DNA of 20,103 nucleotides from a virus. The notes under the pieces were generated by a model. The model was not told the DNA's origin. It saw only the letters and a list, made by a program, of their open reading frames with translations, and did no database searches. The stretch covers positions 1-20,103 of IMG/VR virus record IMGVR_UViG_3300031569_000053; one strand, given 5' to 3'. A program made the position numbers and the translations under genes. Below, piece after piece: positions 13,644 to 20,103 of this stretch (the stretch's first letter is position 1; each line of letters begins with the position of its first letter).

Positions 13644-14090
13644 TTATCTATTTTTATCGTTATTTACATTTTGAATTGCAGTTTGCAAAACAGTGTCGGT
13701 ATAAGTTTTACCCCTCATTATTGAATTTCTTTTTTCACTACTTGGAATATCATCTTTACCGAGCATAATACGGTACATCTTACTTATTAGCTGTTTACAC
13801 TTAAATGAAACTTTATACATATTATATTTTTGAGTAGTTTGATTCCGACGTCTCCATACTTCAATCCAACCCTCTTTTAATAATCTGTTCCAGCGCTTAT
13901 TATCCCAGCTGTAAGCGTACGTACCTATTTTATAATCTTGTTTTGTAAATAATTTAGTACAATCAAAATAAATTAAAAGCTCTAAATCAGCATCGTTTAG
14001 ATTATTATTGCGGCAAGCCCATTTTCTAATTATTCTATAATGCTTAAGCAAGTTTATATCTCTTATTTCACTTGCTTCAAGCTTTCTCAT
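13644..14090 (-). CDS. Winged-helix-like protein, possible regulator
   Basis: The 148-residue product has a helix-rich N-terminal half followed by WNRLLKEGWIEVWRRRN and TTQKYNMYKVSFKCKQLI (about 68-108). A recognition-like helix is followed by a two-stranded wing ending in basic and aromatic residues, as in MarR-type winged helices. The C-terminal 40 residues are basic and polar. It overlaps the groES stop by 4 bases, so it is probably expressed with groEL-groES. Related proteins are frequent in marine flavobacterial phages by my recollection. It could be a transcription factor or a DNA-binding virion protein. The fold is by-eye inference. Confidence 0.7.
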   Translation of the reverse strand: MRKLEASEIRDINLLKHYRIIRKWACRNNNLNDADLELLIYFDCTKLFTKQDYKIGTYAYSWDNKRWNRLLKEGWIEVWRRRNQTTQKYNMYKVSFKCKQLISKMYRIMLGKDDIPSSEKRNSIMRGKTYTDTVLQTAIQNVNNDKNR

Positions 14091-14347
14091 AAAACCACTA
14101 CTATATCTGATGATTTTATAACGTGATAAGCAGTCTTATCAATTTCTATTATATGCCCAGAATGCTTGTCAAAATATATTTTATCGTCTTGATTAATACC
14201 TTCAACTTCATCACCTACTGAAATAACAATAGCCTCTACATATCTTACATCATCTTTATGAGCTTCTGCTAAAAGCAATCCCCCTTTTGTTGTAGATATT
14301 TCTTTTGCTGTTTTATTTATTATTAAATTTCTACCTATTGCCTTCAT
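14087..14347 (-). CDS. groES: Phage GroES-like co-chaperonin
   Basis: The 86-residue protein is a single GroES fold. It has the KAIGRNLII first strand, a mobile loop at about 13-33 with the hydrophobic GroEL-binding tripeptide LLL in GGLLL (22-26, replacing IVL of E. coli GroES), and the closing SDIVVVL. The dome hairpin present in E. coli GroES between the AVG strand and the VGD-V-F strand is missing (VGDEVEGINQDDKIYF). That suggests an open roof, as in T4 gp31. The frame could start at a TTG at 14350, but the ATG at 14347 is preferred. It overlaps groEL by 17 bases and lies immediately downstream, the typical partner order being reversed (groEL first). Confidence 0.88.
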   Translation of the reverse strand: MKAIGRNLIINKTAKEISTTKGGLLLAEAHKDDVRYVEAIVISVGDEVEGINQDDKIYFDKHSGHIIEIDKTAYHVIKSSDIVVVL

Positions 14348-15884
14348 CAATTCTTAAATTATTAATTACACAATCTGTAGATAATATAGTAGTTGCTACT
14401 GAAACAGCATTTGACAATGCACTTTTTGTAACTAGTAGTGGATCTATAATCCCACTTTTAATAAGATTACAGCTTTCACCTGTTATAACATTAATTCCCC
14501 ACCCAACATCAAGAAATGGTCCGTATGAAATACCAGCATTACTTAATATTTTTTTGTAAGGATATTTTATTGCATTAATTAAAATTTGCTCATTTAATGT
14601 TGGATCCTCAATTGAATCAGCCGCATTATGTAATGCTATACCAGCACCGGGAACAATTCCTTCTTTTATTGCAGCTTTAGTTGCGCATATCGCATCTTCA
14701 ACTCTATCTGATTTTTCTTTTAATTCAATATCTGAATTTGCACCTACTTTTACTATTGCTATTTTAGCTGATAGTCTTGCCAATCTTTTTTCTAAACGAA
14801 TAATTTCAGCTGGAGGTTTGTTTTTAGATAAATCTTTTTTAATAAACTTTATTGCTTTTTTAATTTCGTCTGATGGTTTATCTACTTGAATAATAGTTTC
14901 TTCATCAGTAGTTACACTTTTTAAACATGTACCTAAAAATTCTGGTTTAATTAAATCAAGATCGTCTCCTAAATCTTCATTAATTATTGTTGCTTTCGTT
15001 AGCATAGCTAAGTCAGTTAACATTTCTTTTTTTGTTATTCCGTATGTTGGAGCATTAATAACATTAACCTTTATATTTCCTTTAACTTTATTCATTGCTA
15101 AAGCGGATATTACTGGTGCTTCTATATCTGCAACTATTAATAAGGGTTTATTGTTTTTTATAACATATTCTAATACACTTTGTATTTGTCTTACATTTTC
15201 TACAGGAGATTCAATTAATAAAACCAAAGGGTTTTCTAATTCTGCTGCACGCTTTTCTTTACTAGTTATAAAATGAGAGTTTGTTAATCCTTTATCGTAT
15301 TGTACTCCATTAACTACTTCAACTTCTGTTTCTGCTAGATCTGACATTTCCATCATTACAACACCTGTCTTATTGACTGCTCTAAAAGCATTGCCAATTA
15401 TTTTTCCAAGATGTGGATCGTTATTAGTTGATATAGTTGCTATTTGATCAATCATATCTCCTTTAACAGGAACCTTAATTTTATCTAAATATTTTAAAGT
15501 CTTTTTAAGAGCCTGTTCAATTCCTATTCGAACATCCCTAGTACTTATACTCTTATCTACTTTAGATGCCTCTACGAGTATTGCATGAGCTAATACGGTT
15601 GCTGTAGTAGTTCCATCTCCAGCTTCTCTAACTGTTTTACGGGCAGCTTCTTTTAAAAGTGTTGCTCCCATGTTTTCAACTGGGTCTAATAGTATAATAC
15701 TATCTGCCACAGTTACTCCATCTTTTGTAATAACAGGTTTGCCTGCTCCATCTTCTAGCATAACACATTTACCGCCAGCTCCTAATGTAGAGCTGACAGC
15801 ATTAGTGAGTTTATTTATACCTTCAAATACTTTTTCCCTAGCTTCATCTCCAAAGCTAAGATTTTTGACGATTGCGTCTGACAT
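14331..15884 (-). CDS. groEL: Phage-encoded chaperonin GroEL (group I-like Hsp60)
   Basis: The 517-residue protein aligns along its whole length with GroEL. It has the nucleotide-loop equivalent TLGAGGK (33-39), ITKDG with D55, DGTTTAT (90-96) with D90 (catalytic base D398 equivalent is D397 in RVEDA), and the apical helices. Differences from E. coli GroEL are visible. TLGPKGR has become TLGAGGK. Apical substrate residues Y199 and Y203 are L and H, L234 is Q, and the hinge glycines G374-G375 are A373-K374. VAGGG is VPGAG, and the C-terminal GGM tail is absent (ends NLRIDEGNR). All acidic ATPase residues remain, so it should hydrolyse ATP. It overlaps a groES gene, making a self-contained pair. 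Likely clients are phage capsid or fibre proteins. Confidence 0.95.
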   Translation of the reverse strand: MSDAIVKNLSFGDEAREKVFEGINKLTNAVSSTLGAGGKCVMLEDGAGKPVITKDGVTVADSIILLDPVENMGATLLKEAARKTVREAGDGTTTATVLAHAILVEASKVDKSISTRDVRIGIEQALKKTLKYLDKIKVPVKGDMIDQIATISTNNDPHLGKIIGNAFRAVNKTGVVMMEMSDLAETEVEVVNGVQYDKGLTNSHFITSKEKRAAELENPLVLLIESPVENVRQIQSVLEYVIKNNKPLLIVADIEAPVISALAMNKVKGNIKVNVINAPTYGITKKEMLTDLAMLTKATIINEDLGDDLDLIKPEFLGTCLKSVTTDEETIIQVDKPSDEIKKAIKFIKKDLSKNKPPAEIIRLEKRLARLSAKIAIVKVGANSDIELKEKSDRVEDAICATKAAIKEGIVPGAGIALHNAADSIEDPTLNEQILINAIKYPYKKILSNAGISYGPFLDVGWGINVITGESCNLIKSGIIDPLLVTKSALSNAVSVATTILSTDCVINNLRIDEGNR

Positions 15885-16308: not shown

Positions 16309-17286
16309 TTATTTTATTTTTATAAATAAAGGTTTTGTTGTATCAGTGTCTGTTCTTGCTGTTGTATCACCTATACCTCCAAAAGCAACTCTTGTTACTT
16401 CCATAGTATAAGCACCAGCAGTCATACAGAAAAAATAGCCATTATAATATTGCAATGAAGCACCTCCAGCAGATCCTAAGTTTACGTTATATCCTGTACT
16501 TACCCCTTGTAAATCATATTGATAAGTTGGAGCCCCTGCTTGCTCACCCATAACATAATAATTATTACCATCAAAAGCACATCCTTCTTTAGTACCACCT
16601 CCTTGAAATCCAAAACCTGTAGCAACACCAGTAACCGCGTTGTACGTTGCTACCCTTCCACCTTGGAAGTGAGGACTTGCAACTGAAGTATATACTATAT
16701 ATACACCATCTCCACCGTCATCATAGTAGCCTAAACCAAGAATACTACTTCCCTGGTAAGCCACACTAAAACTAAAGCCTGTAGAACCGCCTGAAGTAGT
16801 ACGTTCAACTAAATTAGTACCACTGCTTGGTATAAGAAGAGTAGTTCCATTAGAAGTCATAGCTTGCATGTTTGCATATGCAGTAAAAACAATACCACCC
16901 CCTCCAGAAAGATTACCAGTAGTGGCATCAACGGTGTATTCTCTTACAGCACCAGTTGTTTGTTCTAACGCATACCAATTAGTACTAGTTCTAGCTAGTC
17001 CTCTAGTAACAAAAGTAGTTGAAAAAGCTGAAGATGTTTCAAATTGAGTTAAAATTTGATAATTTACATTAGCATCAGGATAAGTAGAATTTACTCCGGC
17101 TAATGTATTGCCTGTTTTTAACCAATAATCTCCGTTAGGATGAGTATAAAGACCAGTCGTTGCATTATAACCCGTAGGGTTTCCTGTTGTGCTAACACTA
17201 AAAGATTCATAAGTATTAACTGGTAAACCCGTACCGGTTGCTCCACCTCCTGTTGCTAATTCTAAACTTCCTAAATATATTGCCAT
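16309..17286 (-). CDS. Tail protein, beta-propeller-like
   Basis: This 325-residue protein starts MAIYLGSLELATGGGATGTG, a tail-fibre-like N-terminus seen in marine phages. The body shows repeated strand-turn units: WYALEQTTGAVREYTVDATT, a VYIVYTS unit with RVATYNAVTGVATGFGFQ, and NNYYVMGEQAGAPTYQYDLQ. The repeats have (Y)-(T/V)-x-TG-x pairs about 45-55 residues apart, as expected for a beta-propeller of kelch or NHL type. It ends in TKPLFIKIK. It belongs to the tail-fibre cluster, after the 42-residue mini protein. A receptor- or glycan-binding role is likely but inferred. Confidence 0.75.
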   Translation of the reverse strand: MAIYLGSLELATGGGATGTGLPVNTYESFSVSTTGNPTGYNATTGLYTHPNGDYWLKTGNTLAGVNSTYPDANVNYQILTQFETSSAFSTTFVTRGLARTSTNWYALEQTTGAVREYTVDATTGNLSGGGGIVFTAYANMQAMTSNGTTLLIPSSGTNLVERTTSGGSTGFSFSVAYQGSSILGLGYYDDGGDGVYIVYTSVASPHFQGGRVATYNAVTGVATGFGFQGGGTKEGCAFDGNNYYVMGEQAGAPTYQYDLQGVSTGYNVNLGSAGGASLQYYNGYFFCMTAGAYTMEVTRVAFGGIGDTTARTDTDTTKPLFIKIK

Positions 17287-17298
17287 TGTATTGTTATT

Positions 17299-17427
17299 TT
17301 ACGGTGTTGTTATGTATATTGTTGATGAACTATAAGATGGTAAAGCAGTATACTCTGCAGCTGTTAATGTTATAGTTTTTATAATTGATGAATCTACATT
17401 TGTTGATTCTATTTGTGTTCCTGCCAT
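17299..17427 (-). CDS. 42-residue mini tail protein with LTxxEYxAL...TIYI motif
   Basis: The ATG at 17427 opens a 42-residue frame beginning MAGTQIESTNVDSSI and ending TALPSYSSSTIYITTP. The segment ITLTAAEYTALPSYSSSTIY is the L-T-x-x-E-Y-x-A-L ... T-x-Y-I pattern common in the connector repeats of phage tail fibres and minor tail proteins. The gene exactly fills the gap between the glycine-rich fibre gene (ends 17438, 10 bases away) and the 325-residue gene (starts 17286, 12 bases away), with an A-rich leader (ACAATAAAATGG). It may be an independent adaptor subunit. It has no signal or membrane helix. Confidence 0.72.
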   Translation of the reverse strand: MAGTQIESTNVDSSIIKTITLTAAEYTALPSYSSSTIYITTP

Positions 17428-17437
17428 TTTATTGTTT

Positions 17438-18667
17438 TTAGCTAAATGTTATTGTTCCTGTTCCAGTTGTAAAAATTAATACTGAGTCTGTGCCTACTAT
17501 ACTAGGTGTAGGTGTGTTTAAAGTACCTGTAACTGCAAAGCTTGAAACATCAGCTGTTGGGTAGCGTAGGATAACTGTACCTGAGCCGCCATCTCCAGGG
17601 TTTTGACTGCTGTCCCCAGCTCCAGCTCCTCCGCCAGTATTAACAGCGCCATCAACCCCATCAGATGCATTACGTTTTGCACCAGCTCCTCCGCCTCCGG
17701 CGCCCCCTGGATTTGCACTAGAATAACTAGTACCACATCCACCACCACCACCACCAGCGTAATAGTTTCCTGTTCCTCCAATAATGTTTACCTCTAATCC
17801 ATCGCCACCATGCCCAGTGGCGTTTGTACCCCCTAATTCCGAAGCTCCGCCTCCACCCCCACCTTTAAATGTAGCTGCTGGATTATTTCCTACAAAACCT
17901 AACCCACCACCGAAACCTTGATTAGATGTTCCATTGTTTGGATAAACTGTATCGTTGTCGTAATCATTTCCTCCACCAGATCCTCCTACAACAATTCCTG
18001 TACCTTGATGTCCTGAACCACCAGAACCGCCAACAGATGTTATTGTTGAAAATACAGAATTTAAGCCACTAGCCCCATTGTTAGGATTTACATTACTACC
18101 AGCTCCTCCAGTTCCGATAGTGACTGTGTAATTTGTTGCAGCTGTTAAAGATAAAGATGATTCAGCAGTAGCTCCTCCACCAGATGTAGAGCCATAAGAA
18201 GTCCGTAAACCTCCAGCACCCCCTCCACCAGCGGCGTCTCCACCTCCTCCGCCACCTCCAGCAACTACTAAAAAGTCAACAGCAAAGGTAGTAGGTACAT
18301 TAACAAGTGCATCAGTACCATCATTAGCAGCAAATTCTGCCACCCAACCTTGTATAGTTCCTGAGTATATAATGCTTACAGCACCTCTTTGGTAATCTAT
18401 TTTAACATCGTTTGCAGAACCGTTTATATTAGATTGTGCAGTAATTGTAATCTTATTAGTCTGTGCAGTACCAGCATAATCTACTATGCTTACTATATCT
18501 CCTACACTGGCAGTTGGTGGCATAGTTACAATAACTTGATTAGATGTTGTATTAACAAAATAGCCTTGCGATGCTACAGCTTGGAAGTTACCTGTTTTAA
18601 CAGTTGCTTGCCAGTCTACTCCTAAACCTCCTTGTATAAGTTCTTTTGTTACTTTTGTTAATGCCAT
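17438..18667 (-). CDS. Glycine-rich tail fibre protein
   Basis: This 409-residue protein has a conserved head, MALTKVTKELIQGGLGVDWQ, then VKTGNFQAVASQGYFVNTTS (1-115), which I recognise as a tail fibre attachment domain found in cyanophage and marine phages. From FLVVAGGGGGGG (about 132-143) to about 360 it is a glycine-rich domain with SLSLTAATNYTVTIG and SVFSTITS interruptions, likely polyglycine-type strands or an adhesin-like region. The last 48 residues (362-409) form a conserved end module, SGTVILRYPTADVSSFAVTG ... GTGTITFS. The partner fibre gene upstream shares this module. The fibre probably binds the host surface. The start at 18667 is an ATG six bases after the upstream stop. Confidence 0.85.
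   Translation of the reverse strand: MALTKVTKELIQGGLGVDWQATVKTGNFQAVASQGYFVNTTSNQVIVTMPPTASVGDIVSIVDYAGTAQTNKITITAQSNINGSANDVKIDYQRGAVSIIYSGTIQGWVAEFAANDGTDALVNVPTTFAVDFLVVAGGGGGGGDAAGGGGAGGLRTSYGSTSGGGATAESSLSLTAATNYTVTIGTGGAGSNVNPNNGASGLNSVFSTITSVGGSGGSGHQGTGIVVGGSGGGNDYDNDTVYPNNGTSNQGFGGGLGFVGNNPAATFKGGGGGGASELGGTNATGHGGDGLEVNIIGGTGNYYAGGGGGGCGTSYSSANPGGAGGGGAGAKRNASDGVDGAVNTGGGAGAGDSSQNPGDGGSGTVILRYPTADVSSFAVTGTLNTPTPSIVGTDSVLIFTTGTGTITFS
17442..17464. repeat. 23-base exact direct repeat, copy 1 (fibre gene 3' ends)
   Basis: CTAAATGTTATTGTTCCTGT plus TCC is identical to 18678-18700. It encodes the last residues (GTGTITFS) of both glycine-rich fibre genes and reads through the end of the C-terminal module. 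Confidence 0.85.
17511..17587. repeat. 77-base near-identical direct repeat, copy 1
   Basis: Matches 19413-19489 with six mismatches over 77 bases and no gaps. It codes for the SGTVILRYPTADVSS--TGTLNT core at the end of the glycine-rich domain in both fibre genes. Confidence 0.85.
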
Positions 18668-18673
18668 AATATT

Positions 18674-20103
18674 TTAACTAAATGTTATTGTTCCTGTTCC
18701 GCCTATAAATTGTAATATTGAATCTGTGCCGTCTGTAAATTTTGTTTGAAAATGTTCATTAGCAAGCAATGTAACATTACTAGCTGACAAAGCTGAATTA
18801 AATATACGTACTTGGTCTATTGAGCCATTTAAATATCTTGTGCCTGATGACAACCCAAGCTGAATAGATGATATTGTTCCTACTGGATTTGAAAGCGTAA
18901 AACTTGCGCTATCAACCAAAGAGCCATCTATATAAGATTTTACGGTTGAGCCGTCATAAGTCATAGCATAATGCTTCCAAACACCTTTTGTTACTGAACC
19001 TGATGGATTGTAATTATATTGATTAGTAGTATAATTTCTAAACAAAAATCTTGATGAATATCCAGTGCTTCCTGCTGAAAAAACAATAGTTGTATGATTA
19101 GGATAAGATTGATTATCAGATAATTCTAAAATTGTATTTTCATCAGTATCCGATGTTACATTACACCAAGCTGATAATGTAAATGTAGATGGAGAAAAGG
19201 TTGAAGTAGGTAAAACTATTTTACTACTACTCCCATTAAACACAGCCGCTTGACCAAATCTTCCAGCTGCATAAGGGCTAAGATTTGAAGCTGTACCATT
19301 ATATCCATTACCACTTGAATCAGTAACCGTAGTACCACTTCCACCTTCTAACTTATAGTAAGCTGTGTTTGCTATAGGATAAGCTGTGTCTGCAATTGTG
19401 TCTACTGTAGATGGTGTGTTTAAAGTGCCTGTAATTGCATAGCTTGAAACGTCAGCTGTTGGATAGCGTAGGATGACTGTACCTGAGCCTCCAGCTCCTC
19501 CACTAAAAAATCCACCATCTCTTTCAGAGCCACCACCACCGCTTCCAGTATTTGGTGTTCCATTACTACCAGTTGAATGGCTTGCATCACCTCCCCCACC
19601 AGAGCCACCAGTTCCAGGGGTATATGCTGACGGAAACGTTGATCCACCACCACCTCCAGCTCTTGTTACCGAAGTTCCTGTTATTGATGAAGCTAAACCA
19701 GAACCACCATTACCTCCAGTGCTTCCACCATTAACTCCAGCGGAACCACCTCCACCACCACCTCCAGCGGAATAGGGCGGATTTGATCCACCTCCATCTC
19801 CACCAGCGTATCCTTGATTAGAATCTCCAGCTGCCCCTGTGCCAGTACTGTTACTACTCTCCACCCTAGTTGAACCACCTCCAGAGCCTCCAGTTAAGGG
19901 CTGTTTTGTATAGGCTCCACCGCCACCCCCTCCATTGGAGGTAATTGTTGAAAAGACTGAGTTATAACCTGTATTTCCTTGAGAACTTTCACCACTTGCT
20001 GAATACCCTCCATTTCCTCCAGCCCCTACATTTACTGTATAGCTTGTACTAGCTGATAAAGAAAGAGATAATTCACTAGATCCACCACCTCCAGATGACT
20101 CTG
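18674..20103 (-). CDS. Glycine-rich tail fibre protein with inserted LamG-like domain (5' end cut by window edge)
   Basis: The frame is open to base 20103, so the N-terminus lies outside the window. A GTG at 19864 is only an internal codon. The visible part starts SSGGGGSSELSLSLSASTSY, parallel to SGGGATAESSLSLTAATNY of the downstream fibre gene. It continues through NSVFSTITS and glycine-rich repeats to SGTVILRYPTADVSS. After TGTLNTPS the paralogue ends within about 20 residues. Here about 215 residues intervene with YYKLEGGSGTTVTDSSGNGY, GQAAVFNGSSSKIVLP, FTLSAWCNVTSD, GVWKHYAMTYDGSTVKSYID and LNGSIDQVRIFNSALSAS, a classic LamG/concanavalin-like jelly roll. The end module DGTDSILQF--GTGTITFS follows. 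It is probably a carbohydrate-binding fibre. Confidence 0.85.
   Translation of the reverse strand, partial: ESSGGGGSSELSLSLSASTSYTVNVGAGGNGGYSASGESSQGNTGYNSVFSTITSNGGGGGGAYTKQPLTGGSGGGSTRVESSNSTGTGAAGDSNQGYAGGDGGGSNPPYSAGGGGGGGSAGVNGGSTGGNGGSGLASSITGTSVTRAGGGGGSTFPSAYTPGTGGSGGGGDASHSTGSNGTPNTGSGGGGSERDGGFFSGGAGGSGTVILRYPTADVSSYAITGTLNTPSTVDTIADTAYPIANTAYYKLEGGSGTTVTDSSGNGYNGTASNLSPYAAGRFGQAAVFNGSSSKIVLPTSTFSPSTFTLSAWCNVTSDTDENTILELSDNQSYPNHTTIVFSAGSTGYSSRFLFRNYTTNQYNYNPSGSVTKGVWKHYAMTYDGSTVKSYIDGSLVDSASFTLSNPVGTISSIQLGLSSGTRYLNGSIDQVRIFNSALSASNVTLLANEHFQTKFTDGTDSILQFIGGTGTITFS
18678..18700. repeat. 23-base exact direct repeat, copy 2
   Basis: Identical to 17442-17464. It sits at the 3' end of the LamG-containing fibre gene. 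Confidence 0.85.
19413..19489. repeat. 77-base near-identical direct repeat, copy 2
   Basis: Counterpart of 17511-17587. Together with the 18678-18700 repeat it brackets the LamG-coding stretch, which is missing between the equivalent repeats in the other fibre gene. Confidence 0.85.

Follow-up and report, generated by a model that had tools for sequence, protein, structure and literature searches.

Two adjacent fibre genes at the edge of the window share a C-terminal ending that is compact in the short gene and holds a LamG domain between its two halves in the long one. The window is the whole stretch analysed, an IMG/VR virus record of 20,103 bases from a marine bacteriophage, with its main genes all on the minus strand. 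The explanation that we hold to be the probable one is that the genes encode modular host-recognition fibres with hinge-bounded cassettes, which are exchanged in frame among distant flavophages.

The long form, gene 1, predicts 475 aa and lacks its 5′-end at the contig edge. The terminase matches listed are to Flavobacterium, Cellulophaga, Tenacibaculum and Maribacter phages and to the uncultured podovirus MW202828.1, with 64% identity to MW202828.1 and 46% to most of the others listed, and these relatives make a flavobacterial podovirus the likely source. The window also carries a phage GroEL gene at 14331-15884 (-) (Cpn60, E 6e-57) and, after it, at 14087-14350 (-), a small gene in the GroES place. 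Both are common to the window and its sister phages, and MW202828.1 too has groEL followed by a chaperonin-10 gene.

Table 1. Position and basis of the features of the fibre region. Positions are those of the window unless a locus is named.
Feature	Position	Strand	Basis or remark
Fibre gene 1 (long form)	18674..20101	-	ORF; glycine-rich domain, half A, LamG, half B
Glycine-rich (Gly_rich_2) domain, gene 1, variable cassette	19463..20101	-	Pfam E 2e-15
Half A (hinge A), gene 1	19412..19486	-	SGTVILRYPTADVSSYAITGTLNTP; 23/25 residues identical to gene 2
Inserted cassette (227 aa) between halves	18731..19411	-	Filled and empty alleles in relatives
Exact 95-bp match to L176:4353-4447	19228..19322	-	LamG N-terminal edge; longest exact match with L176
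LamG/ConA-like jelly roll (Pfam stretch)	18773..19237	-	Laminin_G_3 match; AF2 model; Foldseek
Half B (hinge B), gene 1	18677..18730	-	GTDSILQFIGGTGTITFS; 14/18 residues identical to gene 2
Fibre gene 2 (short form)	17438..18667	-	409 aa; XD1-like N-domain, glycine-rich domain, half A, half B
XD1-homologous N-domain, gene 2	18332..18634	-	Profile E 7e-12 to 7RFV residues 76-176 (CBA120 TSP4)
Glycine-rich domain, gene 2, variable cassette	17561..18301	-	Pfam E 7e-18
Half A, gene 2	17510..17584	-	SGTVILRYPTADVSSFAVTGTLNTP
Half B, gene 2	17441..17494	-	GTDSVLIFTTGTGTITFS
Unrelated 129-aa gene and half-B remnant	L241:1437-1922		Also in L240 and L242

The original prediction was placed on the long gene only, with the short gene as its comparison, and the fibre ending that it saw in both genes is real (Table 1). 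At the DNA level, half A of gene 1 is 90.7% identical to that of gene 2 over 86 bp (E 3e-29), and half B with the bases 3′ of it is 83.6% identical over 61 bp (E 7e-11), hence the likeness of the two genes is not due to chance. The halves of the short gene had been described as directly joined, which is nearly right, as 5 residues (TPSIV) intervene. The spacing in gene 1 is 227 residues rather than the approximately 215 first estimated, but the LamG assignment stands: Laminin_G_3 (PF13385) matches gene 1 only (E 6.9e-27, 94.9 bits against a cut-off of 27.6).

In a predicted model of gene 2, residues 361-409, which include both halves, form strands (pLDDT 87-97) that end the glycine-rich domain. 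Halves A and B are most likely the closing strands of this adhesin domain and, at the same time, conserved joints for cassette exchange. Half A may pair with half B; the hinge strands are confident in the gene 2 model and have low confidence (pLDDT about 45-63) in the model of A, LamG and B. The inserted segment was expected to be an independent jelly roll, and a confident one was obtained when the end of gene 1 was modelled with AlphaFold2 from a 53-sequence alignment (pLDDT about 80-94 over most of the insert). The model gave 549 PDB fold matches at E<=0.001 (Foldseek), the best being domain 4 of AbnA (5HON; E 2.7e-13, target TM 0.81), which was also found by sequence with phmmer (E 3e-11). 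The two domains share the same jelly-roll fold, but AbnA domain 4 is part of a bacterial arabinanase whereas the phage LamG domain sits in a fibre gene. Fold matches to clostridial neurotoxin and trypanosome sialidase were dismissed beyond the shared ConA-like jelly roll, being non-specific for the fold. Judged by family and fold, carbohydrate binding by the LamG domain is plausible, and the domain could alter cell recognition or host range.

The remaining domains also belong to known fibre types. Gly_rich_2 (PF21722) was found in both genes, at 57.8 and 66 bits against a cut-off of 24.3. The glycine-rich domain of gene 2 has a weak profile match to the Pam3 fibre (E 0.0065) and a partial Foldseek match to its structure, 7YPX (E 5e-4), with a low target TM of 0.40. 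Pam3 gp24 has a glycine-rich stem and a hypervariable tip proposed as receptor-binding, like gp38 of Salmonella phage S16 (PMC9608196). The gene 2 domain may be akin to this glycine-rich adhesin type, although S16 gp38 was not among the Foldseek matches listed for gene 2, and window gene 1 differs from Pam3 gp24 and S16 gp38 in its inserted LamG. The N-domain of gene 2 matches XD1 of CBA120 TSP4 (residues 76-176; domain borders from PMC8825819), and has fold matches to 7REJ (E 2e-6) and the T4 baseplate, 5IV5 (E 2e-3). The XD domains of CBA120 TSP4 and T4 gp10 belong to branched fibre assembly (PMC8825819). Only an XD1-type domain was recognised in gene 2, with no anchor domain, XD2 or XD3. 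It would be a fibre attachment domain of the T4 gp9/gp10 family. The corresponding part of window gene 1 is off the contig, and the XD1-type domain is present in the orthologous long gene of L003.

Viral contig scans with the terminase, GroEL, gene 2, the LamG end and the short end yielded about 250 loci, designated by L-numbers, and all sequences are metagenomic. Fibre ORFs surveyed in these loci occur in four states: empty, filled once, filled twice, and with LamG after half B. Besides the window, six IMG/VR contigs are filled once (L003, L176, L177, L014 and, with more divergent linkers, L109 and L115), and L178 is filled twice, with two LamGs in tandem between the halves. Pfam confirms LamG in all of the filled relatives but L177. 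More than 40 alleles are empty, with half B directly after half A, and these include gene 2 of the window, gene 2 of L003, two genes in L098, and alleles in L099, L006, L007, L011, L013, L237 and L244. L003 has exactly the two-gene order of the window, a filled gene and then an empty one, and at this position the sister phage L098 (GroEL 90% and terminase 93% identical) carries a pair of empty genes. The two-half arrangement thus occurs in relatives with LamG and in relatives without it, and the empty, single and double alleles strongly support the modular gain or loss of a cassette that had been proposed.

LamG follows half B, via a different linker, in L186, L106, L113, L237 and the second gene of L014. 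As many relatives are of this kind, the site between the halves is one of two places of LamG addition. The giant fibre genes L178:3896-7249 and L237:127-3474 are made up of a glycine-rich domain, two LamGs and a C-terminal DUF7483 (PF24299). The neighbours of the window in a GroEL tree are L096, L098 and L099; L098 and L099 are without the insert, and L096 stops short of the fibre genes. As the history of the fibre genes departs from that of the backbone, this pattern does not tell gain from loss of the cassette.

A trace of gene replacement was found at the same junction. In L097 (the same contig as L241), L240 and L242, gene 2 is absent and replaced by an unrelated 129-aa gene, and a half-B remnant lies behind the stop of that gene, in frame and dead. 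The remnant is a near base-for-base match to the window from the A/B junction into the following small ORF, and it appears to be a fossil recombination junction. Since this scar begins at the A/B junction, the junction that holds LamG in gene 1 is also the one at which gene replacement ended in the sister phages. The small ORF (MAGTQIESTNVDSSIIKTITLTAAEYTALPSYSSSTIYITTP, 17287-17427, -) lies directly after gene 2 and is kept behind the half-B scar in L097. Its DNA is highly conserved with L003, within a 310-bp match at 92%. The next gene (16309-17286, -), which has no Pfam or PHROG match, is variable, with 25-35% identity to its positional counterpart in L097, L098 and L003. Beyond it, L097 and L098 match the window at about 80-95% identity in most genes.

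Exchange of DNA at the hinges was assessed at fourfold sites, with a correction for codon usage, as raw counts take no account of regional codon composition. Between the window and L176, 21 of the 25 fourfold sites in halves A and B are identical, where 9.7 would be expected at saturation and none of 20,000 simulations reached the observed number; with hinges of about 75 and 54 bp, these samples are small. The four backbone genes shared with L176 are all at saturation (25/76 sites identical), and so is the glycine-rich domain of gene 1 (27/87). Nucleotide identity of that domain is 52-54% to its L003 and L176 orthologues, with fourfold sites saturated, and half A (about 90%) and half B (94%) are conserved in comparison with both. 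A profile of the long gene against L176 gives about 50% identity in the glycine-rich domain, 89-96% in half A and 96% in half B. Within LamG the profile stands at 100% over residues 261-290, at the edge that includes the exact match in Table 1, and at 35-50% in the core; the edges are conserved in DNA and the core (about residues 300-420) is hypervariable. Outside the fibre region, the window and L176 share no 20 exact bases.

Gene 2 has a similar profile in comparison with its L003 counterpart. Identical fourfold sites number 23/27 in A and B, 51/54 in the N-domain and 45/88 in the glycine-rich domain, and GroEL of the two phages is saturated (19/51). The glycine-rich domain has 51% aa identity between flanks of 85-100%, and the gene 2 N-domain includes an exact match of 148 bp, against one of 48 bp outside the fibre region. 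The LamG edge GRFGQAAVFNGSSS (window 19217-19265) recurs at about 84-94% DNA identity over 40-50 bp in the LamG arrays of dozens of viral contigs, which suggests that LamG edges may themselves be recombination joints. The original prediction was of a single insertion; the locus has several variable cassettes between conserved DNA islands, namely two glycine-rich domains, the LamG core and the gene after gene 2.

These comparisons bear on an alternative in which the two genes are old paralogues from an ancient duplication, LamG was gained once, and A and B stayed alike by purifying selection with no recent exchange. A and B are indeed conserved in protein across many relatives, and the similar insert linkers (YP..NTAYYKL) in the window, L003, L176, L178 and L014 fit one ancient insertion. 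However, the backbone is saturated at synonymous sites and A and B are nowhere near it, and purifying selection on the protein does not explain such identity, which points to recent DNA exchange and largely refutes this history. The 95-bp exact match to L176 inside LamG and the half-B scar behind an unrelated gene also oppose it, and we consider it unlikely.

Half B could instead be an independent, reusable terminal strand carried by whatever domain is last, in which case nothing has been inserted between halves. Half B does join two glycine-rich domains within one gene in L009, follows LamG in L178 and L014, where further domains then follow, and survives alone as the remnant in L097, L240 and L242. 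Against this, compact alleles keep A and B within about 30 residues of one another at the end of the glycine-rich domain, and the gene 2 model shows the two as a single beta region of high confidence. On either side, the empty junction of L237, TGTLNTPSAGAQTQFTEGSDT, also agrees with the filled junctions of L014 and L178, and an independent half B is accordingly a quite improbable account. A chimeric assembly joining LamG to the fibre gene was rejected as having a negligible chance since, although the long gene is at the contig edge and near-identical hinges could mislead an assembler, the independent metagenome contigs L003, L176 and L177 share the A-LamG-B join with different LamG cores.

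The preferred explanation is thus exchange of hinge-bounded cassettes. The two genes would be modular host-recognition fibres of a flavobacterial podovirus, each with an XD1-type attachment domain, a glycine-rich adhesin domain like that of Pam3 or gp38 and, at the C-terminus, a beta module (A and B) that closes it, and gene 1 would carry the LamG jelly roll in the loop between half A and half B. Half A, half B, the LamG edges and the XD1 domain are short conserved DNA islands and may supply the arms when phages in a co-infected cell recombine, by a homologous or homology-assisted route. Glycine-rich and LamG cassettes would be exchanged, added or dropped in frame, even among distantly related flavophages. 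It is from the sequence patterns that we infer recombination as the process behind the exchange. A broader proposal, to which we give about even odds, is that the fibre region is a multi-cassette exchange locus, with the islands as standing homology arms and the A/B junction as a preferred breakpoint. The islands might then comprise the XD1 domain, half A, the LamG edges, half B and the small ORF after gene 2, a list held with the same balanced confidence. No firmer, the exchanged units may be the glycine-rich, LamG and following-gene cassettes, swapped across backbones without 20 shared exact bases.

The shuffling of domains among phage receptor-binding proteins is well established (Smug et al. 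2023, PMC10684548). The case described here has in common with it a recent, mosaic swapping of recognition domains by tail fibre genes that otherwise diverge, with high-identity segments beside saturated segments within the same protein. In the tail-protein examples of that study it is the C-terminal domain that changes behind a nearly identical N-terminus, whereas here the beta module that closes the C-terminus holds an extra domain, with a conserved hinge at either end of it, and a scar is visible. A tblastn search of named phages with the whole long protein gave no match, and the LamG end alone gave weak partial matches, mostly to cyanophages and mycobacteriophages, with no isolate having the arrangement. 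No description of it was found in open-licence papers on LamG in marine or flavobacterial phage fibres. This looks like a known evolutionary habit, here well resolved and with unusually clear junctions.

The natural pairs of empty and filled alleles (window gene 1 and gene 2; L237 and L014/L178) lend themselves to binding tests, and the two halves together may be usable as a sequence handle to find fibre cassettes in metagenomes. For the abundant, mostly uncultured marine flavophages, the insertion sites, joints and allele states would amount to a testable rule for how fibres are re-tooled.
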